This document shows positions 2,485-37,408 of a stretch of DNA of 64,000 nt, piece after piece. The position numbers and the translations under genes are program-made. Positions within the stretch are counted from its first letter, which is position 1. Every line of letters begins with the position of its first letter. A model generated the notes under the pieces. That model saw only the letters and a program-made list of their open reading frames with translations, searched no databases and had not been told where the DNA came from. The stretch comes from Nocardioides sp. B-3. GTDB lineage: Bacteria > Actinomycetota > Actinomycetes > Propionibacteriales > Nocardioidaceae. Location of the stretch: NCBI RefSeq assembly GCF_024703895.1, contig NZ_CP087968.1:1054001-1118000 (forward strand), written 5' to 3'.

Positions 2485-2963
2485 CTATTCGCCGGGTGCG
2501 ATCGTGATGTCGCTGAATTTCCCGAGCAGTCGGTGACTTGCGGGGTGTGGGTCGCTGAGCAGCCCATGGAGGCGTACATGTCGGGTGCCGGGGTTGAGCG
2601 CGGCTACAACGAGGGCGACGGGGTTGCTGTTGCGCATTGCCATGAGTCGCATGGTTCGGCGGTCTCTTGGGCTGGGTGGTTGCGGTAGGGGGTGGGTGTG
2701 CCACTCGCCGACGTATCCGATGAGGGGATCGCTGATGGCGAGGTAGTTCACGAGGATCTGTTGGGCGGGTTTGGCGCGGCGTACGTAGTGGGTGCGGGCT
2801 GCTGTCCCGTCGTCGACGACGAGGGCGTCCTCGATGTGGAGCCCGTTGGGGGTGCGGTAGCCGACGAGGATGCCCCCATGTTCGGTCGTCCCGGGAAGCA
2901 CGGGCTGCGGCGTGTAGCGTCGTGGGCTTGCTGAGAGAGGAGGACTGTGGCGGCGGCTGTCAT
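2485..2963 (-). CDS. cap3: CBASS Cap3-like JAB/JAMM deconjugating protease, frameshifted
   Basis: Zinc isopeptidase that removes the CD-NTase from conjugates made by Cap2 in type II CBASS (established for the family). The JAMM motif is complete: EWHTHP (zinc ligands) and, ten residues on, SPRDRRTM supplying S-x-x-D. About 158 residues. The start is ATG at 2963, in the ATGA overlap with the Cap2 stop, reading MTAAATVLLSQQAHDATRRS. A shift near 2890 joins this to the main frame (LPGTTEHGGILVGYRTPNG). Last recognisable CBASS gene of the operon; the four-base overlap argues for translational coupling with Cap2. Confidence 0.85.
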
Positions 2964-4406
2964 GTGTGGTTGCGGACTTCCCCGGCTGGGCATTCCGGGT
3001 CACCGGTGAGCATCCCGATGACGTGGCGAACGGTCATGGCTGCGGCTTCGGCGACGGCGTGCGGTGGTGTGCGGGAGATGGGCTCGCCGCAGCCTGCCTC
3101 GAACATTTCGAGGCCGTTTGGGGGTTGGTGCACGGTGGGTGGGTGCGGGGTGGCGGCGTCGTAGGGGAGGGACGATGTCCGCGCGTTGGGTGCGGCCCCT
3201 CGTTTTGGAGGCAGGCGGTGATGAAGCGGCGGCCGGTGGCGCGGGCGGCGTCTTCGAGCATGGAGGTGACTGCGCCGTCCGCTGTGGCGTCGACGACGAG
3301 GTCGTAGGCGTCGAGAAGTTCGGCCGCTTCGGCGGGGCTCGCCAAGGGCGCTGGGTTAGCGACGATCACGGCTCGGTTGTAGGGGCGGTTATCGAGGACG
3401 ACCTTCACCAGTGTGGCCTTGTTCGTTCCGCACAGTGACAGCGTGGTGACGAGATGCCGAGTCGTGTTTCCGGGGCTCAGGATGTCGAAGTCGCGGACGG
3501 TCATCCGCCCGATTCCGGCGCGCGAGTCCGTCGCAGATGTGTGATCCCAAGGCTCCGGCACCGACGACGTAGACATGCTTGTTGGCGAGCGCGTCAACGG
3601 CGGACCCAGCACGCAGTCGCATGACGGACTGGTTAGACGAGGCCGACAGCGCGAAGCGAGGGGTGGCGTCCTGTCCCTTGGCGCCCGTGAGGGTGATGGC
3701 GACCGCCCCGTGCTGGTTGCCGCGTTGGTATCGGATGAGGAGGACGTCGATGCGGTCACGTTCGATGGCGGACTGGATGCGCTCCGGCTCGGCGACGTTC
3801 GTGATCAGGTCGTGCCAGTTCAGTGGCGGCGTGGTGAGTTCTGCCCAGGTCAGTCACGTATCCACTCAGGATGCCCTTGGTGCTCTTCTTGGGGACCTTG
3901 CCGGGTCCGATCACGCGGAGCGTGCGCTGGTCGGCGCGGATCTCGATGTAGTCGTCGCTCAGTGTGCTGAGGTCGTCGTACATCACGTACCCGGTGTCGA
4001 TGGGCAGGTCTAGGTATGCCTCGATGTCGAGGGCCGGGGGGTCGTCGGGCCATCCCTGCTCGTTCTTCTCGAACCAGAGGTCAACTCGTGCGAGGAGGGA
4101 GTCAGCGTCACGCCACGGCTGGTTGTCGCGGTCGCGGCTGGCGTAGAGGCAGAGGTCACCGTTGGGCGATTGGTGCCGTGTCCCGGGAACGTCCCCGATG
4201 GCGCGCACGGTGGGCTGTACGTAGGGGAAACCGTCGATTACGCGGATCTCGACGCGGCCATCTTCGAGTTTTGCGTCGCTCGATGAGCCAAGCGATTTGT
4301 CGCGCGTGAGTCGGTAGCCGCGCTCGATGAGTTCGTTGATGAAGTCGTCGCGCTCTTGTGCGATGGCGTCGTTCCAGAGCGTGAGGTCGGCCTTGTTGTC
4401 ATCCAA
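2960..4406 (-). CDS. cap2: CBASS Cap2-like E2-E1 fusion (ubiquitin-transfer-like), frameshifted
   Basis: About 480 residues. The N-terminal E2-like domain (about 1-150) contains GFPYVQP and SPNGDLCLY, where the Cys is the likely E2 nucleophile. A linker (about 150-250) is followed by an E1/ThiF adenylating domain with the nucleotide loop VVGAGALGSHICDGLAR, then DFDILSPGNTTRH and LVVDATADGAVTSML. Cap2 joins the CD-NTase C-terminus to targets and thereby primes signalling. Shifts lie near 3840, 3510 and 3180, and the last leads into EAGCGEPISRTPPHAV and the TGA at 2960-2962. The TTG start at 4406 overlaps the CD-NTase end by 8 bp; the nearby ATGA is in another frame and could be the real start if a shift follows. 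E2-E1 order in one gene identifies type II CBASS. Confidence 0.88.
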
Positions 4407-5397
4407 AGCGCAGGTCTCCTGCGGTGGTGCGCTTGTCGCCCGAGGTCCGACTCTTGGAATCGGACTTCTTGTTGCCGTCCTTGTCGTAGCCCGACGGCAT
4501 GGGGAACACGTTGGTGAAGTCGTCGTTGGAGCCGAGGATGCCCTGCAAAAGCACGGCCGCCTTCCCGGCTTCGTCGTCGCCCATGTCGCACGCGGTGCGG
4601 GCGTCGGCGGCTGCGGTCGTGAACTTGTCCCGTGCGGTGTCGAAGTCGGCGTCCTCGTCGAAGTCGAGCACCTTGCCGTCCATGGAGGGGTCGGGCATCT
4701 CGAAGTCGTCGTCGGCGATGCGGCGGAACACATCGGCGACGCCCTCCATGGCCGAAGCGAAGAACTCGGCCATGGTCTCGCCCGAGACGAGGCCCTCCTC
4801 GCAGGCGGTGTAGAGCGCCATCTCGACTGTGAAGCCGCCGGGTTTGGTCTTTCCGAGGAGGTTGCGGCGTGCCTGTCGGAGCAGTTTCACGCAGGGAACG
4901 TACAACTCGTCGTACTCAGCGTTCTTGTCTTCCTTGAGTTCGGTCATCTTCACCGGGTTGGTCTCGACCCAGCCCTCGTCCTTTGTCGGGATCTCCCACA
5001 CGGCACCCGCTTTCCGGGCGGGCACCACGTCGATGAACAGTCCGTCGGCGTCGGGAACGAGCAGGGTGACCGACCGGTCGTATCGGGTGACGTTCTTCTT
5101 TCCATACTCCTTCACGAGCACGTCGTAGACACGGTCGAGAACGTCTGCAGGCAGCAACTCCTGCCGGGTAGTCGTCGAGTCGGCAGAACATGTCGACGTC
5201 GTATACGCGGGCGGATTGAAACCCGTCGCCCGTACGAGCCGATCAGGATCGGGTTGATCCCCCACGCCTTGAGGTCCTCGTCGGCAGCCAGCACCTTGCC
5301 GACCTCCTCGTGGGCCTCGGGGGCGGTGTCCCAGTCGAACTTGCTGGGTTCGATGTTCCGATTGCGCAGTTGCGAACTGCGAGGTGAGGTCAGCCAT
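4399..5397 (-). CDS. CD-NTase (SMODS) cyclic oligonucleotide synthase of CBASS, frameshifted
   Basis: About 332 residues. Nucleotidyltransferase signature: LIGSYGR, then YDVDMFCRLDD about 10 residues later (the first two acidic ligands), then GLFIDVVPARK (third acidic residue). It is followed by the helical half (CVKLLRQARRNLLG...FTVEMALY) typical of CD-NTases. Upon phage sensing these enzymes make a cyclic di- or trinucleotide that activates the effector. Shifts lie near 5360 and 5200. It ends ...AGDLRFG with TGA at 4399-4401. C-terminal residues are the expected Cap2 conjugation site; the terminal Gly fits that, though the last residue varies among systems. The start ATG at 5397 overlaps the SLATT stop by 8 bp. 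The clade and product cannot be read from sequence by eye. Confidence 0.88.
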   Translation of the reverse strand: MADLTSQFATAQSEHRTQQVRLGHRPRGPRGGRQGAGCRRGPQGVGDQPDPDRLVRATGFNPPAYTTSTCSADSTTTRQELLPADVLDRVYDVLVKEYGKKNVTRYDRSVTLLVPDADGLFIDVVPARKAGAVWEIPTKDEGWVETNPVKMTELKEDKNAEYDELYVPCVKLLRQARRNLLGKTKPGGFTVEMALYTACEEGLVSGETMAEFFASAMEGVADVFRRIADDDFEMPDPSMDGKVLDFDEDADFDTARDKFTTAAADARTACDMGDDEAGKAAVLLQGILGSNDDFTNVFPMPSGYDKDGNKKSDSKSRTSGDKRTTAGDLRFG

Positions 5398-6006
5398 GAG
5401 TGGTCTCCTTGGTGGCCAGCGTGGTGTTGCTGGTGTGGTCGATGGCGAACCGTTGCCCGCCCTTGCGGATGTTCTTGGCCGCCTTCTTGTAGAAGTGCTT
5501 GGCTGGCGCCTCGGCGGTGTGACGGATCTCGGAGTACCGGTCCGTGAGGATGGTGAGTTCCTCTCGTGCATTCTTGAGATCCTGTGCGGCAAGGTCGACG
5601 AGGAGCATCCGTCGAGCGTCTCCTTGGATGTCGTGGAAGGCATTGGCGCATGTGTGTGCTCGTTGCGACCGGCGCTCAGCGCCTAGGACAGTCATGATTG
5701 CCGTGAGCGCCGCAGCACCAAGCGCGGCCGCCCCGACAACCCGGATGGGCAGGCCGTCGCTCACGCCCACGGCCCCGGTGGCCAGCCCAAGCACACTGGC
5801 GGGGGCACCTAGCGCAAGGTTGCAGCCGCGCCAAAACTTGCCCGCCTCGAACTGGTTTTGCGCGGACCACCGAGCGCTCTCTTCGAGTCGGGACAGTTCC
5901 TGACCGATGGGCACCAGTCAACGGGGACGTCGGCCGGTACGGCGTAGTGCTCGCCGGGCTCATCAGGTGGGGTGGACTTGCCCTGCAGTCGAGCGAGGAA
6001 ACCCAT
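5390..6006 (-). CDS. SLATT-domain two-helix membrane protein, likely CBASS effector, frameshifted
   Basis: About 205 residues from ATG 6006 (MGFLARLQGKSTPPDEPGEH), with one shift near 5915 into PIGQELSRLEESARWSAQ. Two adjacent hydrophobic helices (about 60-105: LALGAPASVLGLATGAVGV and VVGAAALGAAALTAIMTVLG) are followed by an amphipathic helical region with a basic end (HFYKKAAKNIRKG). This is the layout of SLATT domains, described as two-helix effectors beside SMODS nucleotidyltransferases. The known model is membrane disruption when the nucleotide signal arises. It is translated upstream of the CD-NTase, an order unlike most described type II CBASS operons where the effector follows or precedes at a distance. 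Family call by pattern only. Confidence 0.75.
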
Positions 6007-6014
6007 ACGGCGCC

Positions 6015-6260
6015 CTACTTCTTGTCGCGGGGCGGGAAGGGGTCGTTGCCCGGCTTGACGGTGTCGGAGTTGCGGATCTTGCCGTCGCGGCCGTGGATGG
6101 CAACCTCGCCACCCCCGGCGTTGTGGACGATCTCCTTGGCTCGGGCCACGGCGTCCTTCTGAGTGTCGGCGTGGGCACTGGCACGGGATGCGCCGGGCTT
6201 CTGGACGTTCCAGCCGCCGTCCTTGTCGGGGACGACGTGGCGTCGGTTGTCGTTACTCAT
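6015..6260 (-). CDS. DUF2188-family small protein heading the CBASS operon
   Basis: 81 residues, intact, soluble. It reads RRHVVPDKDGGWNVQKPGAS then TQKDAVARAKEIVHNAGGGE then VAIHGRDGKIRNSDTV, the compact pattern of DUF2188 proteins, with tryptophan in the first hairpin and a helix before IHGRDGxI. GGGAG lies 7 bp upstream of the ATG at 6260, and a damage-type promoter lies at 6293-6315. Its stop is 8 bp before the SLATT start, so it is the first gene of the operon. DUF2188 proteins are found widely as free-standing small proteins with no established activity. A role in CBASS would be new and is only inferred from synteny. Confidence 0.8.
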   Translation of the reverse strand: MSNDNRRHVVPDKDGGWNVQKPGASRASAHADTQKDAVARAKEIVHNAGGGEVAIHGRDGKIRNSDTVKPGNDPFPPRDKK

Positions 6261-6292
6261 GGCTGACTCCCGGGGTGGTGGTTGGTAGTTGC

Positions 6293-6315
6293 AACGTAAG
6301 GGGGCCCACCGACAG
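6293..6315 (-). promoter_or_regulatory. PafBC/RecA-NDp-type promoter of the CBASS operon
   Basis: Minus strand: CTGTCGGTG, 8 bp (GGCCCCCT), TACGTT. All defined positions of TTGTCRGTG-N8-TANNNT are met except the first T. The predicted transcription start is about 6286, giving a leader of about 26 bases with an SD sequence before the DUF2188 ATG at 6260. In mycobacteria this promoter class is activated by the WYL-domain regulator PafBC during DNA damage. Confidence 0.6.
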
Positions 6316-6316
6316 T

Positions 6317-13222: not shown

Positions 13223-13704
13223 CGCAGGCCACCAAGGTGGCGGGTGCGGTGCTCGATGATGGTGAACCTCCACGGCGGGGCTTGCGCCTTTGTATACCCG
13301 CCCGGTGGGGGCGCCGTCGCGTGAGCGCGACCGGTCCATCCAAAGCGGGCCCGGCCGTCCGGAACCGGGTTTGCGTCCCGGACCTGTCCCGGACCTCGCA
13401 AGGTTGATGTCCCCGACCTGTCCCGAACCTCAGCCTGACGGCACTTTGGACGGCGTCTGGACGGTCTGATTGCCGATCCGGGGGCTCTCGCGGTCGACCG
13501 ATCTCCTTGGCATGAGCGACAACGAGATCCCCAACGGGGCACCCAACGTGACCACACCACCGCGAGTGGACGTGGTGGCGCACCAGCGCCGCCGGTTCGG
13601 ACATGGATCAGTCCAGGGCTTCCCGGGGGCGAGGCGATCGTGCTTCAGTTCCCCTCACGGACTCGAACAACTGTTCGATCCATTGTTGGGAAGGAGGACA
13701 CCGC
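13223..13704. other. Divergent control region upstream of the transposition operon, with a 20-bp direct repeat
   Basis: Between the divergent gene start at 13222 and the tnsA-like start at 13705. It holds two near-identical 20-bp direct repeats, CCCGGACCTGTCCCGGACCT at 13377-13396 and CCCCGACCTGTCCCGAACCT at 13411-13430 (start to start 34 bp), which look like binding sites for an element-encoded regulator such as the XRE protein. It also holds the LexA box at 13663-13678 and the SD AAGGAGG at 13691-13697. No gene is supported in it. Confidence 0.5.
13663..13678. promoter_or_regulatory. LexA (SOS) box of the transposition operon
   Basis: TCGAACAACTGTTCGA, a perfect dyad matching the actinobacterial SOS box TCGAAC-N4-GTTCGA. 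It lies 26 bp before the ATG at 13705 and 12 bp before its SD, so LexA binding would block transcription initiation or early elongation. It resembles the boxes beside lexA at 30592-30647 in this window. It implies that tnsABC is repressed until SOS induction. Confidence 0.75.
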
Positions 13705-14416: not shown

Positions 14417-14595
14417 ACGCCACACCCTCGAACGTGCCCGTTGAGTCATCCCCGGCGGTACACCCGGCTGCATCCCCAGAAACGGTGGAGTTTGCTGCGG
14501 TATCCCCGGCGGAGACGGCGGTGTCACATGAGAGCGGTCGCGATCAGACGACTCACCCTTGCGGTTCAGACAAGCCGAGGGTGGTGGCGCGATGA
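14413..14595 (+). CDS. 60-residue ORF between tnsA-like and tnsB
   Basis: Begins in the ATGA overlap with the tnsA-like stop and ends in an ATGA overlap with a possible tnsB start at 14592. The product is rich in Pro, Ser, Val and Glu (VPVESSPAVHPAASPETVEF), with no hydrophobic segment or motif. It could be a separate small protein, or simply the N-terminus of TnsB if a frameshift is missing. The double overlap supports a real coding unit, but the composition is low in information. Confidence 0.4.
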   Translation: MNATPSNVPVESSPAVHPAASPETVEFAAVSPAETAVSHESGRDQTTHPCGSDKPRVVAR

Positions 14596-16304
14596 CAGGC
14601 GTGGTTCTGGCGCCCGCGCTCCAACGACGGCAGCCAAGGCCTTGGCTGCGCAACGTAGGCAGGCGCTGACACACCTTGCGCTGGTCCGTACACAGAACGG
14701 ACACGTGCCGGGCCCAGTCATGACGGAGGTGGCCTCGCGGCTGGAAGTTCACCCCGAGCACCTCAGCAAGATGCTGCGGGAGTTCTGCCGCACCGCGAGG
14801 GTGGCGGAGCGGCCGGGCAGCACCTACAAGAAGTGCGTCCCGGACGAGTGGCAAGCCAAGGTCCAGTTCTTCCTGAACAAGGGGGTGGCCAGCAAGGCCC
14901 ACAAGGCGCTCGCAACTGCTGGCCAACTCCCCGAAGGGATGAGCCTACGGGCGTTCCAGCGGCGGGTGAAGGAATGGGACCCGGCACTGGTTGCCTGCGC
15001 CAAGGGCGGCTACCGGGCGATGGTCAAGCACCAGTTCTTCAACATCGAGCACATCCCCCACCGGGCCTACGCGTACGGAACCGATCACACGAAACTGCCG
15101 ATCATGGTGATCCCCGAACGGGGCATGAAGCCGATCTGGCCGTGGCTGACCACGCTGATCGACCTCAAGACCCGGTTGGTGTTGGCGTACCTTCTCACCG
15201 ACCGTGTCCCCAACACCGCCGACAGCATCGACACTCTCCTTGAAGGTGTCCGTGGCTGGTACACCGCCGACGGAGTGTTCGTGGGCGGGAAGCCCAAGTT
15301 CCTGCGTTCGGACCGGGGCGGCGACTACATCTCGGACGCGTTGGCCATGAACCTCATGGACCTCGACATCGGGCGACAGTTCACCGAGCCGTACTCGTCA
15401 TGGCAGAACGGACGTGTTGAGGCCTTCAACGGCACCATCGACCGGGGACTTCGCACCCAGCATGCCGGGATTCCACCCCGGCGGCGAAGAGGAATACACC
15501 CGCCGGGTTCTCAAGACCCCCATCCCGGTGACGTCGCTGGTGACGTTGGAGGTTCTCGACCGCAGGTTGGGCGACTTCTTCGGCGACTACAACAACCGCG
15601 TCCACTCGGCTCTCAACGGTCTGAGCCCTTTGCAGGCATGGGCCGACGACGACCACCAACCCGAACTCGCAAACAGCGAAACGGTCATGAACGCCATGTC
15701 GTACAAGGAGTCCCGTCGGCTCAACCACTACGGCATCGAGATCCGCAACGCCCACTACAGCCACCCGACGCTGGCCGGGCTGCGCAAGGAGAACGTCACA
15801 CACGTCGAGGTCCGCTTCCATGCCCACGACCGGCACCACATCGAGGTGTTCGTCGACGGCGTCTGGGAATGCACCGCCACCAAGACGACCGTCCAGCCCG
15901 AGCACCACCGCCTCGGTGTCTTGTCGGTCCGTTCCGGCCAGCGCCGCGAGGTCGAGCGCCTCATTCGGACGGCCGACTACGAGCGCGTCCTCGCCGAGCA
16001 AGCCCGTCTGCGTGAGGAAGGCATCGACGAGTCCGAGATGCCCCTCCTGCCGCCCCACCCCGACGAGGACACCGAACCCGGAGCGCCTGCGATGCCCGAT
16101 CTGCCGGACCTCGTCGATGACTTGGGCGGCGTCATCGACACCGCCACGGCCCGGTCGGGCTCGCTCGGCGCCACCTTGTCTGGCAGCACCATCGACACGC
16201 TGAACAGGGCGCTATCTGACTCGCCCCTCCTCGACCCGGACGAGTCCACCGTTCTACCCACCATCCCCGACCTGATCTCCCCCACCGAGGAGGGCGCAGC
16301 ATGA
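14592..16304 (+). CDS. tnsB: TnsB/Mu-type DDE transposase, frameshifted
   Basis: About 570 residues. N-terminal helix-turn-helix-like region (VASRLEVHPEHLSKMLREFC), then an integrase-fold catalytic core. First Asp in YAYGTDHTKLPIMV, second Asp in FLRSDRGGDYISDA, Glu in SSWQNGRVEAFNG, in order and spacing for DDE. After the core come FFGDYNNRVHSALNGLSPLQAW and a Mu-transposase C-terminal beta-barrel region (HRLGVLSVRSGQRREVERLI). The C-terminal 90 residues are acidic and probably contact the ATPase. TnsB binds the end repeats and joins 3' ends to the target. Shifts lie near 14620 and 15475. The start at 14592 is an ATGA overlap; the stop at 16302-16304 overlaps tnsC. Confidence 0.88.
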
Positions 16305-17093
16305 CCACCACCGCGACTACCGCCACAGCCACCTACCTGTCCCAGAGCGCGGCCTTGCCAGCCCGGACTGCCGCTACGTGCCCACGTCACTGATCGACGG
16401 GGTCAGCCCGGCCGTGAAGGTTGCTGTTCGTACGGGCGGATGCTGCCTCATCGACGGTCCCGTCGGCGTCGGCAAAACCACGGCCGTCGTCGAGGCAGCC
16501 CACGCGAACTCGACTGCAACGCCGTCTACATCAACATGTTCGGCACCTCGACACCCCGCGACCAGATGGACGCCATCTGGACCGGGATGACAGGCACCCG
16601 GGGTGTTGGCACCGCCGCGCAGATCCGCGACGACATCCTCGACACCCTCAGCCGCAAGCGGATGACGCTTCTCATCGACGACGCCCACCACGTTGGCCTC
16701 AAGGGTCTCTCGCCCATCCCGGCCATCTGGAACCGCCTCCACACCGCACGCGGCACCGGCACCCCCATCGTGTTGTGCGGCAACAGCCCGGAACGGCACC
16801 TCAAGTCGACCTTGCCCGAACTGCTGTCCAGGTCCTCGACTCGCTACGTCGCGAACCCGCTCGCCGGGAAGCAACTCGTCGCAGCCGTCATGGCCATGGA
16901 ACCGCTCATCGCCGGGACCGCCGAGGACACCATCCGCCACATCGACGCCCGCCACTTCCGAGGCGAAATCCGCCGCTGGGACCAGTTCCTCGACATGGTC
17001 CTCCTCTTCCGGGGCGCCAACACGGACCCGCACCCGCTCACCGACGATGAGGCCAAGACGGTCCTCTCGATCATGCCCGGCGGTAACCAGTGA
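16301..17093 (+). CDS. tnsC: TnsC/TniB-type AAA+ ATPase, frameshifted
   Basis: About 263 residues. Walker A GPVGVGKTTAVVEAAHAN, Walker B MTLLIDDAHHVGLKG, sensor-1-like PIVLCGNSPE, and a lid segment ending in a predicted helical tail. Target-complex regulator that activates TnsB and links it to a target-selection protein in Tn7 relatives. The start ATG at 16301 overlaps the tnsB stop. Shifts lie near 16370 and 16510, and the first 25 residues are Thr/Ala rich. The stop overlaps a GTG start of the next gene. Short for TnsC but within the TniB/MuB range. Confidence 0.88.
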
Positions 17094-30490: not shown

Positions 30491-30513
30491 TGTCTAGACG
30501 GAGCCACCGACAA
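30491..30513 (-). promoter_or_regulatory. PafBC/RecA-NDp-type promoter of the divS-like gene
   Basis: Minus strand TTGTCGGTG, 8 bp (GCTCCGTC), TAGACA, followed by T. Nineteen bases are identical with the site at 1269-1287. The -10 ends 46 bp before the ATG, giving a leader of about 39 bases. LexA boxes lie just upstream, suggesting dual control as described for the mycobacterial homologue. Confidence 0.6.
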
Positions 30514-30539: not shown

Positions 30540-30647
30540 TCGAACATGTGTACGACGGTAGAGCATGTGTTCGAACGACGCAAGCACTCGGACGAACATT
30601 TGTTCGATGGATCAGAACCTCCGACACGCCTTCGAACAAATGTTTGA
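30540..30647. promoter_or_regulatory. Cluster of LexA boxes between the divS-like gene and lexA
   Basis: TCGAACATGTGTACGA (30540-30555, one mismatch), a half-site GTTCGA at 30569-30574 followed by TCGAAC, ACGAACATTTGTTCGA (30592-30607) and TCGAACAAATGTTTGA (30632-30647). All fit TCGAAC-N4-GTTCGA with at most one or two changes. The last is 55 bp from the lexA ATG, suited to autoregulation; the first lie nearer the divS-like promoter. Confidence 0.85.
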
Positions 30648-30702
30648 ACAACCGCTCGGCTGTGACTACGGTGAGACCAATCGATCCGCAGGAGGCGCCG
30701 CC

Positions 30703-31432
30703 ATGGCGAAGAAGGAAACACCGGACGCACAGGTCCTGCCCATGCCCGACGGACCGCCCGACGCCACGGGCCTCACTCCTCGCCAGCAGCGGGTGCTCGC
30801 GACCATCAAGGACGCCATCGAGACCCGGGGCTATCCACCGAGCATGCGTGAGATCGGCGCCGCCGTTGGCCTCACCAGCTCCTCCAGCGTCGCCCACCAG
30901 CTCAAGACGCTCGAGGAGAAGGGGTTCCTGCGACGCGACCCCAACCGGCCGCGTGCGTTGGAGGTCTTCCTGCCCGAGCTGATGGCGGCACGTCGCTCCA
31001 TCTCGAGCGCCGACGAGTCGACGTACGACGAGACAGACATCGGCAACACCGCTCCCCCGGCGACCTACGTCCCCATGGTCGGGCGGATCGCCGCCGGTGG
31101 GCCGATCCCGGCCGAGGAGCGGATCGAAGAGGTCTTCCCGCTGCCCAAGTCGCTGGTCGGCGACGGCACCCTGTTCATGCTCGAGGTCTCCGGCGACTCG
31201 ATGATCGACGCGGCCATCTGCAGCGGCGACTACGTCGTGATCCGCCGGGGAGCAGACCGCGGAGAACGGCGACATCGTCGCGGCGCTGATCGACGGCGAG
31301 GCGACGGTCAAGACGTTCCAGCGCAAGGACGGCCACGTCTGGCTGATGCCGCACAACGTCAACTACGACCCCATCGACGGCACCAACGCCACGATCCCGG
31401 GCAAGGTGACCGCGGTCCTGCGCCGCATGTGA
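30703..31432 (+). CDS. lexA: LexA repressor, frameshifted
   Basis: About 243 residues. Winged helix-turn-helix [40 protein letters not shown]. Autocleavage site in [14 protein letters not shown] (Ala-Gly), Ser-Lys dyad: [19 protein letters not shown], and K in [16 protein letters not shown]. One shift near 31255 between GDYVVIRR and [17 protein letters not shown] 30703 with SD AGGAGG. RecA-stimulated self-cleavage derepresses the SOS genes; targets in this window should include lexA itself, the divS-like gene and the tns operon. Confidence 0.95.
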
Positions 31433-31610
31433 GGCTCGTCGATTGACCCAAATGCGGGCATGCGTCCGGGCGCACCCCTCCCGCACGCTTGACGGACCTC
31501 ATCCTTGGCCGGCAGCCGCGGGCGGCCCCGGACATCCCTGATCTGATCCCCGGGGTCGACCGGGGACAAGCCCGATGCCGGTCAACCGTCAGCCGGGCTT
31601 GGGTAGAACA

Positions 31611-35397: not shown

Positions 35398-37379
35398 TCA
35401 GCCCTCGGCGAGCCGGGCCAGCGCCTTGCGCACGAGCGCGGGGTCGGTGGTGGTCCACATCGGCGGCAGGGAGGCCTTGAGGAACGAGCCGTAGCGAGCG
35501 GTCGCGAGCCCGGGGATCGAGTACGGCGACGACGCCGCGATCGGAGGTCGTGCGGATCAGCCGCCCGGCGCCCCTGGGCCAGCAGCAGCGCGGCATGGGT
35601 GGCGGCGACCTGCATGAAACCGTTGCCGCCAGCCTTGTCGGCGGCCTTCTGGCGCGCGGACATCAGCGGGTCGTCGGGGCGCGGGAAGGGGATGCGGTCG
35701 ATCAGCACCAGCTGGCAGGTCTCCCCCGGCACGTCGAGCCCCTGCCACAGCGACAGCGTGCCGAACAGGCAGGTGTGCGGGTCCTCGACGAACTGCTTGG
35801 CGAGCTCGGGCAGCTGCGCGTCGCCCCCGGGCGAGCGTCGTCAGGTACGGGAGGCGCTCGCGCACGACCTCGGCCGCGGTCTCGGCCGCCCGGCGTGACG
35901 AGAACAGCCCGAGGGTGCGACCACCCGCGGCGTCCACCAGCTCGCAGATCTCGTCGAGCTGGGACTTCACGAGGCCGTCGCGGCCGGGAGGCGGCAGGTG
36001 GCGGGCGACGTACAAGATCGCCTGCTGGCCGTAGTCGAACGGTGAGCCGACGTCGATCCCCCGCCGGGCAGCACCTCGCCGGAGCGTGACGGGGCCTCGC
36101 GCTCGGTCGGCTTGAGGCCGAGCGAGGTGGCGACGGCGTTGAAGTCGCCGCCGAGCATCAGCGTCGCACTCGTGAAGACGACGGTCTTGTCGGTCAGCAG
36201 CTTGTCGCGCATCGGCCCCCACACGGAGCGGCGCGACGTGCAGCCGCGCCGGGATGCGGTCGCGCGCCTCGTTGAGCCACAGCACGTCGCTCTCGAGGTT
36301 GGCGGCCATCCGCTCGGCGTTGACGAAGACGTCCTGAACCATGCCCTTGGCACGGGTGCGGCCGGCGTCGCCGCCGTCGCCGCCCGACGTCTCCTTGGGG
36401 AAGGCCGAGAGGCACGTGCGGGCGGCGTCGCGCACGAGCGCCAGCGCCTCGCCCAGCTGGTCGGAGAGTCGCTCGATCCGGCCCGGCGTGGTCGCCTCGA
36501 TCGCCTCGGCCAGCGAGTCGGCGGCCTCGCCGAGCGCGTCGGCCGACTCGTCCTCCACCCAGCGCTGGGAGCGCCGCGACGCGCGCTCGATGTCGTTGAC
36601 CGCGAGCTCGTCGGTCGCCGCCTGCGTCACGCGGGCGGTCAGCTCGTGGGCCTCGTCGATGACCACCGCGTCGTAGTCGGGGATCATCGGCACCCCCTCG
36701 ATCGCGTCGATGGCAAGCAGCGAGTGGTTGGTGATGATCAGGTGCGAGCGCTGCGCCTTCTCCTTCGCGCGCTCGGCGAAGCACTCCGCGGCGAAGGGGC
36801 ACTTGGTGGCGCCGAGGCACTCGCGGTGGCTGACGCTGACCCGGCGCCACTCGCGGTCGGTGTGGCGCGGCGCGTTGTCGCGCTCGCCGGTGCCGGAGTC
36901 CTCGGACTCCTTCTCGGCCCACGCGCGGAGCTCGAGCACCTTCTCCGCCATCGATCCGGTGGGGACGTCGACGAGCGCGCCCTGCTCGTCGGGCACTCCT
37001 TCACGGATGCGGTGCAGGCACGCGTAGTTGCCCCGGCCCTTGAGCACGGCGTACGTCGCATCGACTCGGTCGCCGATGGCCTCGACCAGCCTCGGGATGT
37101 CCCGCTCGACGAGCTGGTGCTGCAGGGCGAGGGTCGCGGTGGCGACCACGACGCGGTCGTGGTGGAGCAGCGCCGGGACGAGGTAGGCCAGCGACTTGCC
37201 GGTGCCGGTGCCGGCCCTGGACGAGCAGGTGCTTGCCGTCCACGAGGGCCCGGGGAGACCCGGGTGGCCATCTCGATCTGGCCGGCCCGCTCCTGCCCGC
37301 CGAGGGCCGTCACCGCAGCGCCGAGCACCCCGGTGACATCTGGGGTCCTGCGCGCGGGTGGGGCTTGGGTGTCAGGCAC
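35398..37379 (-). CDS. dinG: DinG/XPD-type ATP-dependent DNA helicase, frameshifted
   Basis: About 660 residues. MPDTQAPPARRTPDVTGVLG at the start, Walker A restored across a shift near 37215 (HLLVQ, GTGTGKS), Fe-S cluster cysteines in NYACLHRI, SHRECLGATKC and FAAECFAE, DEAH box DAVVIDEAHELTARV, later TLGLFSSRRAAETAAEVVRE. Shifts also near 36230, 36070, 35835 and 35560; the end VRKALARLAEG gives TGA at 35398-35400. 5'-3' helicase that resolves R-loops and structured DNA. The promoter at 37386-37408 places the transcription start at or next to ATG 37379, so the mRNA is predicted to be leaderless. Confidence 0.88.
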
Positions 37380-37385
37380 CCGAGA

Positions 37386-37408
37386 ACCCTACGGGCGAGC
37401 ACCGACAG
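37386..37408 (-). promoter_or_regulatory. PafBC/RecA-NDp-type promoter of dinG
   Basis: Minus strand CTGTCGGTG, 8 bp (CTCGCCCG), TAGGGT. The -10 is the exact mycobacterial consensus TAGGGT. It ends 7 bp from the dinG ATG, so transcription should begin at the start codon. This is the best match of the four such sites in the window and serves as an internal control for the motif, since dinG is a DNA-repair gene. Confidence 0.75.

Follow-up and report, generated by a model that had tools for sequence, protein, structure and literature searches.

A PafBC-type damage promoter motif precedes a CBASS operon in Nocardioides sp. B-3 and recurs at CBASS loci of other Actinomycetes

A five-gene CBASS operon on the minus strand

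The window, i.e. the whole stretch of 64,000 nucleotides of Nocardioides sp. B-3 DNA analyzed here, carries on its minus strand an operon of five genes for a DUF2188 protein, a SLATT (2TM) effector, a CD-NTase, an E2-E1 fusion and a JAB protein, which were identified with Pfam and PADLOC. A type I restriction system was assigned by PADLOC directly upstream of the operon. The promoter motif and the genes behind it are as follows.

6293..6315, minus strand: PafBC/RecA-NDp-type promoter with CTGTCGGTG, the 8-nt spacer GGCCCCCT and the -10 element TACGTT
6015..6260, minus strand: first gene, DUF2188 protein of 81 aa, PADLOC candidate PDC-S16 (PF09954, E 6.7e-24; PDC-S16, E 1.8e-27)
5390..6006, minus strand: SLATT/2TM CBASS effector, frameshift near 5912 (PADLOC Effector 2TM PDLC00710, E 3.6e-65 on 5390-5914)
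4399..5397, minus strand: CD-NTase (CBASS oligonucleotide cyclase), frameshift in the first third (PADLOC Cyclase PDLC00810, E 9.1e-88, and SMODS, E 1.6e-7, on 4399-5211)
2965..4406, minus strand: E2-E1 (Cap2-like) ThiF fusion, frameshifted, limits approximate (PADLOC E1-E2 PDLC00844, E 1.3e-43 and 1.2e-35 in two pieces; ThiF, E 1.8e-9)
2485..3003, minus strand: JAB (Cap3-like) isopeptidase (Prok-JAB, E 2.1e-7)

With a PDLC00810 cyclase, a PDLC00710 2TM effector and matches to PDLC00844, ThiF and Prok-JAB, the operon meets the definition of a type II-like CBASS; its activity is inferred. The ATG of the SLATT gene at 6006 lies 8 nt past the DUF2188 stop, and the N-terminal piece of the CD-NTase was located at contig positions 1059208-1059360. 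In the assembly (4.48 Mb, single contig, 61% complete), several operon genes are frameshifted, and so is pafB; since these frames are broken alike, sequencing error is the likely cause, and real decay is not excluded.

A damage promoter motif upstream of the first gene

The minus-strand sequence at 6315-6293 reads CTGTCGGTGGGCCCCCTTACGTT in full. The consensus published for the RecA-independent damage promoter is tTGTCRgtg - 8 nt - TannnT (according to the accessible part of PMC5656591), and the site departs from it only at the weakly conserved first base. Its -10 hexamer ends at 6293, and 32 nt including a GGGAG stretch separate it from the ATG at 6260 on the same strand. The preliminary description had noted a match to the mycobacterial RecA-independent damage promoter at the right distance from the operon, and both the fit to the consensus and the spacing to the ATG confirm this match; the pattern used there has its sole zero-mismatch match in the 64-kb window at 6315-6293 (minus strand). 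RNA structure prediction for the leader together with the DUF2188 gene gave nothing unusual (z -0.26).

When TGTCRGTG-N8-TANNNT was used as the pattern, one further exact site was found in the window, at 37408-37386 on the minus strand. This site, a one-mismatch site and the neighboring lexA frame are located as follows.

37386..37408, minus strand: further exact TGTCRGTG-N8-TANNNT site, ahead of the frame of a DinG/YoaA-like helicase (35557-37149)
30491..30513, minus strand: one-mismatch PafBC-type site, TTGTCGGTGGCTCCGTCTAGACA, before a short gene divergent from lexA ('divS-like')
30565-31446, plus strand: lexA frame (LexA_DNA_bind, E 5.4e-27)

The helicase frame matched the DinG chain 6fwr (E 4.4e-10) and the YoaA model (E 1.4e-50), the latter under its curated cut-off. 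It had been claimed that the motif also stands before dinG and a divS-like gene of this window: this holds with an exact TGTCRGTG-N8-TANNNT site for the DinG/YoaA-like frame, and for the second gene only with a mismatch in the last -10 base. That gene presumably encodes a LysM domain, as read by eye, and its submitted frame gave no match to Pfam and NCBIfam.

The PafBC regulon of the host

Throughout the genome, 26 sites match TGTCRGTG-N8-TANNNT exactly, versus one for the reversed pattern. Apart from the site before the CBASS operon, 14 of the remaining 25 precede what we take to be recA, uvrA, uvrB, radA, the gene for polymerase III gamma/tau (dnaX), dnaB, sbcD, genes for a DEDDh exonuclease and a RecB-like nuclease, clpP, dinG and three HNH/DUF222 genes; the frames behind the other 11 sites were not recognised as repair genes. 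The names were given to the first open frames by eye, and only dinG was checked. A listed start lies 6-7 nt past the -10 element in 12 of the 25 cases.

PafBC is described as an ssDNA-activated factor that redirects the sigma-A polymerase to promoters bearing the motif (PMC11804915, as far as its text was available). The host encodes both proteins that membership in this class requires: pafC (HTH_PafC, PF19187) with WYL and WCX domains, adjoining pafA (Pup ligase), a proteasome alpha gene and tatC, and pafB, which was identified by eye, has a WYL match and is frameshifted in the assembly. In its core sequence, spacing and -10 element, in the presence of PafC and in the company of the presumed recA, uvrA, uvrB and radA genes (read by eye here), the site resembles the mycobacterial PafBC/RecA-NDp (P1) promoter. 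It differs in that its target is a CBASS, whereas the regulon is described, in the portion of PMC8223512 that we could consult, as one of DNA repair and oxidative stress genes.

Recurrence of the motif at CBASS cyclase loci

The exact motif was taken from the literature before CBASS cyclase loci were surveyed. In the first round, the cyclase family was matched in 30 of 293 genomes of the order, including that of the window. Among the ten strong homologues, the motif was exact in four (L063, L064, L069, L071; 64-100 nt before the cyclase), had one mismatch in three (L065, L068, L070; at -48 to -109) and two mismatches in one (L072; at -163); no motif was present near the operon in the other two of these ten closest homologues (L066, L067). 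Of 22 weaker matches 20 were fetched, and eight of them had an exact site ahead of the cyclase or of the gene preceding it. In the second round, named genomes were scanned with the ten cyclases; of the 54 loci obtained, six repeated the first round. Up to 2.5 kb upstream of these loci, 6 exact and 13 one-mismatch sites were found on the sense strand; the antisense strand had no exact and two one-mismatch sites, and the downstream and reversed counts were zero. As a lone query, the broken cyclase of the window detected no relative in the named genomes; the alignment of ten sequences did find relatives. The third set was built on SMODS domain matches, which 41 of the 394 genomes of the class contained, and the exact motif was present in five of the 40 loci fetched; the related loci L177-L180 have a common site with the -10 element CATACT in a similar place.

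After removal of repeats, the combined set comprised 119 CBASS cyclase loci, the window counted. Left out were six named loci overlapping ones already in the set (L096, L097, L115, L140, L142, L146), two of the 22 weak first-round matches that adjoined another match (G080, G188) and five of 45 SMODS places already included. Less than 1.5 kb of upstream sequence was at hand in three of the 119 loci (L116, L132, L139). Weak matches that may not be CBASS (e.g., L087, L089, L091) were kept, which lowers the motif rate.

The exact motif was found upstream in sense orientation at 22 of the 119 loci, in each case within 1.5 kb, and at none in antisense or reversed orientation; 300 permutations of the 8-mer over the same loci gave a mean of 0.013 and a maximum of 1. 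Thus, the motif does precede many homologous actinobacterial CBASS operons, the check put forward in the preliminary description. In loci from whole genomes, 18 of 71 had an exact site versus 0.54 expected from the site density of the Nocardioides sp. B-3 genome. If C or T was permitted at the first -10 base, the count rose to 34/119 (antisense 1; permuted mean 0.15, maximum 6), and inclusion of TGTCG(G/T)A(C/G/T)CC forms gave 46/119 (antisense 1, reversed 0), the variant forms behind this last value being defined post hoc, after the loci had been seen. A matrix built from the 25 other genome sites scored at least one hit at a threshold of 14 in 42/119 sense versus 10/238 control sequences, and so was less discriminating between the two than the exact motif. 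No form tested was present at 73 of the 119 loci, and the exact motif was absent from 97, so that the predicted wiring to PafBC is common, not universal. A pafC gene was found in all 61 CBASS genomes searched (of 66 with a match).

In the 25 motif-bearing loci whose first gene was located, the distance from the motif end to the first gene start was 2-91 nt by a simple longest-frame rule. Behind the exact motif, the effectors were of the HNH-SAVED (L073), patatin (L078, L081, L084), 2TM (L144, L181) and 1TM (L194) classes, or the cyclase came first and was followed by a 4TM effector (L199) or an E2 gene (L085, L086). Relaxed or variant motifs were followed by 2TM (L177, L178) and HNH-SAVED (L184) effectors. 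The effector family of the window, PDLC00710, was found behind an exact motif in Knoellia (L144). With this many effector classes behind the motif, the link is not tied to one effector or cyclase clade.

Lineage variants, plasmids and other taxa

The number of exact sites per genome ranged from zero (G302) to 53 (G027, G029); G302 contains pafC and a CBASS-like locus, yet has no exact motif genome-wide. In eight genomes of family f21, the variant TGTCGGACC-N7-TANNNT occurs at 4-14 sites per genome, with control counts of 0-1. The 14 sites in one of them (G416) stand before genes that we assume, from reading by eye, to be recA, a DnaQ-like exonuclease gene, ligA, radA, recQ, exoA and a dnaE-like gene, among others. 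The variant was exact in two of the ten f21 survey loci (L191 in G346, L184 in G566) and one base off in another (L189 in G416); it lies 7 nt before the first gene in all three, and that gene encodes an HNH-SAVED effector in L184. The other seven f21 loci lacked any form, several of them being weak SMODS matches. With three loci behind it, the match of the CBASS promoter to the host variant is suggestive only. Outside f21, the TGTCGGACC variant was also found before CBASS in L094, L120, L122, L132 and on Rhodococcus plasmids. One G416 site of the variant (L283) lies before a frame that resembles a C5 cytosine methylase.

Among the 48 named loci, some form was present in 18 of 33 from Actinomycetes, four of them exact (the variant pattern here also permits A at the fifth base), in none of 11 from Chloroflexota, Dormibacterota or Acidimicrobiia, and in none of four of uncertain taxon. 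All six CBASS loci on Rhodococcus and Tsukamurella plasmids (five from Rhodococcus, two of these nearly identical, and one from Tsukamurella) had a form 52-85 nt before the cyclase, i.e. two exact motifs, two TGTCGGACC, one TGTCAGACC and one relaxed -10 element. No motif form was found at the two CBASS loci from Pseudomonadota (Polaromonas, Rhizobium), near both of which ImmA plus helix-turn-helix pairs are annotated. The Tsukamurella plasmid CBASS has an ImmA/XRE pair together with the relaxed motif, so that the two controls are not necessarily mutually exclusive.

Control loci

Control loci were limited to those of the best matches (30 for hsdM, 30 for OLD, 29 for DUF2188) and do not cover all listed places. 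The exact motif was present within 1.5 kb at one of the best 30 hsdM loci (L248) and at one of the best 29 DUF2188 loci (L220). No form was seen at the best 30 OLD nuclease loci, a weak control since only 18 of the 30 reach an in-frame stop more than 200 nt inside the stretch. The exact rate at CBASS loci exceeded that at hsdM loci with a one-sided p of 0.028, and that at the hsdM and DUF2188 best matches together with p 0.003; both values are rough because kin loci are not independent.

The exact motif of L248, GTGTCAGTGGCACCCGATAGCGT, is situated at -606 relative to the N6_Mtase match, a short distance before a type I hsdM gene. As this site seems to be a true one, the promoter also occurs outside CBASS, and PafBC may control some restriction systems too. 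In L220 (G010), an exact PafBC-type motif lies 79 nt upstream of the DUF2188 match, which is followed by a 295-aa frame and then an OLD-like gene (TOPRIM match G010:C1:926196). This is a second DUF2188-first operon with defence-like content.

Comparison with dedicated CBASS regulators

To our knowledge, the known CBASS controls are operon-encoded repressors. WYL proteins at the loci were sought with PF13280 (among the matches listed) and with phmmer. At 118 loci phmmer retrieved a single one, at the motif-negative L082; as a positive control, it recovered all 20 known WYL genes drawn from the upper PF13280 matches, and a profile built from these 20 again found only L082. The earlier proposal that the host's own WYL regulator may take the place of a dedicated one fits this near absence of WYL genes beside CBASS. 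L082 itself (G188) is CBASS-like, with the WYL gene less than 1 kb away on the opposite strand, and may be an actinobacterial case of a CapW-like arrangement.

The gene for CapW lies upstream of the CBASS operon under its control, and the protein counts among the WYL repressors (PMC10693628 and PMC9122588, both available in part). The window operon has no WYL gene at its side; all five WYL matches of the genome lie outside the window, and here a global activator encoded elsewhere would act instead. With CapH/CapP control, it has in common that CBASS is tied to ssDNA and DNA damage. That system consists of a repressor and an ssDNA-activated cleaving protein, encoded upstream of CBASS (from the accessible sections of PMC10693628), whereas no such pair is among the genes identified in the window operon, a statement without a profile search behind it; pairs resembling CapH/CapP are annotated near the CBASS of Polaromonas, Rhizobium and Tsukamurella. 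SiwR of M. smegmatis is likewise a WYL activator answering genotoxic stress in an actinobacterium; unlike the regulator proposed here, it controls the dinS operon, and according to its authors (2023) regulation of phage defence by a WYL factor had not been described in Actinobacteria (both from the part of PMC10693628 at our disposal).

No published PafBC control of CBASS was found in a search of titles and the beginnings of abstracts; most subscription journals lay outside this search, and absence in print is not proven. The individual parts are known, and the PafBC-CBASS link, its breadth over effector classes and the variants appear to be new.

Proposed control of the operon and alternative explanations

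Comparative genomics supports the interpretation of a PafBC-type damage promoter on CBASS. We consider it highly probable that the DUF2188-SLATT-CD-NTase-E2/E1-JAB operon is transcribed from a PafBC-dependent promoter at 6315-6293 upon damage or ssDNA accumulation, and that the same wiring exists in many Actinomycetes CBASS of different effector classes. The motif, its position and conservation, the host regulon and the presence of pafC are established at the level of the DNA sequence; in the absence of transcription data, PafBC binding at this site, low basal activity, inducibility, pafBC dependence, the phage signal and the benefit are inferred. With induction and PafBC dependence inferred in the same way, the survey suggests that a substantial share of Actinomycetes have CBASS wired to the PafBC damage response of the host.

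In an undamaged cell, the promoter would be weak because it has no good -35 element. Single-stranded DNA would build up upon DNA damage, or when phage DNA is copied, attacked by nucleases or restricted; PafBC would then bind it, join the sigma-A RNA polymerase and switch the promoter on. More cyclase and effector would thereby be made before or during an infection, to be at hand when the infection is sensed. The type I restriction system upstream could be one source of the signal through its DNA breaks, which is speculation.

The promoter might be real and have ClgR as its main activator, which shares the P1 motif, in which case another stress rather than ssDNA would be the trigger. Recognition of the P1 region by ClgR and impaired damage induction in a clgR deletion have been reported (a study cited in PMC5656591, itself available in part), and against this a later review assigns the motif to PafBC (PMC8223512), for which sigma adaptation and activation by ssDNA are described (PMC11804915), as far as the accessible parts of these two papers go. 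As the genes read by eye as recA, uvrA and uvrB also bear the motif in this genome, we regard ClgR as an unlikely main activator. The site could instead be an ordinary sigma-A promoter, resembling the motif by chance or constitutive and without damage control. The -10 pattern TANNNT is common and there are no expression data to rule this out; the complete sense bias of the 22 exact sites, their excess over the permuted mean and the sharing of the motif with host damage genes make this explanation highly improbable.

The motif could also serve the DUF2188 gene alone, with a separate CBASS promoter further down. DUF2188 is indeed the first gene, and the DUF2188 gene of L220 has an exact motif as well. 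This explanation was tested and is not favored: only that one locus among the best 29 for DUF2188 carries the motif within 1.5 kb, the SLATT gene follows after 8 nt, and elsewhere the motif directly precedes CBASS operons whose first gene encodes the effector or the cyclase, all of which renders it very unlikely. Control by LexA as part of the SOS response comes to mind since the window contains lexA and, close to it, SOS-box-like sites. A search between 4084 and 7951 gave no match to TCGAACNNNNGTTCGA within two mismatches; there is hence no SOS box at the CBASS promoter, and SOS control of the operon is scarcely credible.

CBASS can kill its own cell, so the timing of its switch-on matters. 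If the PafBC link is true and conserved, ssDNA sensing would provide CBASS with a host-wide alarm, and CBASS RNA is predicted to rise with mitomycin C or phage and to fall in a pafBC deletion. It is also relevant to the question whether immune cell death is primed or triggered by drugs that damage DNA. More tentatively, and as a possibility that we would not rate as probable, PafBC may, beyond regulating repair, be a general anti-phage alarm in Actinomycetes, by which ssDNA from phage replication or restriction would induce CBASS across many effector classes, probably together with some restriction and OLD-type systems. The promoter would be kept or regained, partly as the host variant, when CBASS moves between lineages, hence often without a regulator of its own.

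Further sites in the window

A stretch of 19 identical bases, TTGTCGGTGGCTCCGTCTA, occurs at 1286 (minus strand) before a C5 cytosine methylase gene and at 30512 (minus strand) before the gene divergent from lexA; both sites have a mismatch in the last -10 base. At 13663-13678, a perfect SOS box, TCGAACAACTGTTCGA, lies upstream of a transposition-like gene set with an integrase core in frame 14441-16015 and an AAA domain in 16440-17093, which suggests a damage-induced mobile element.
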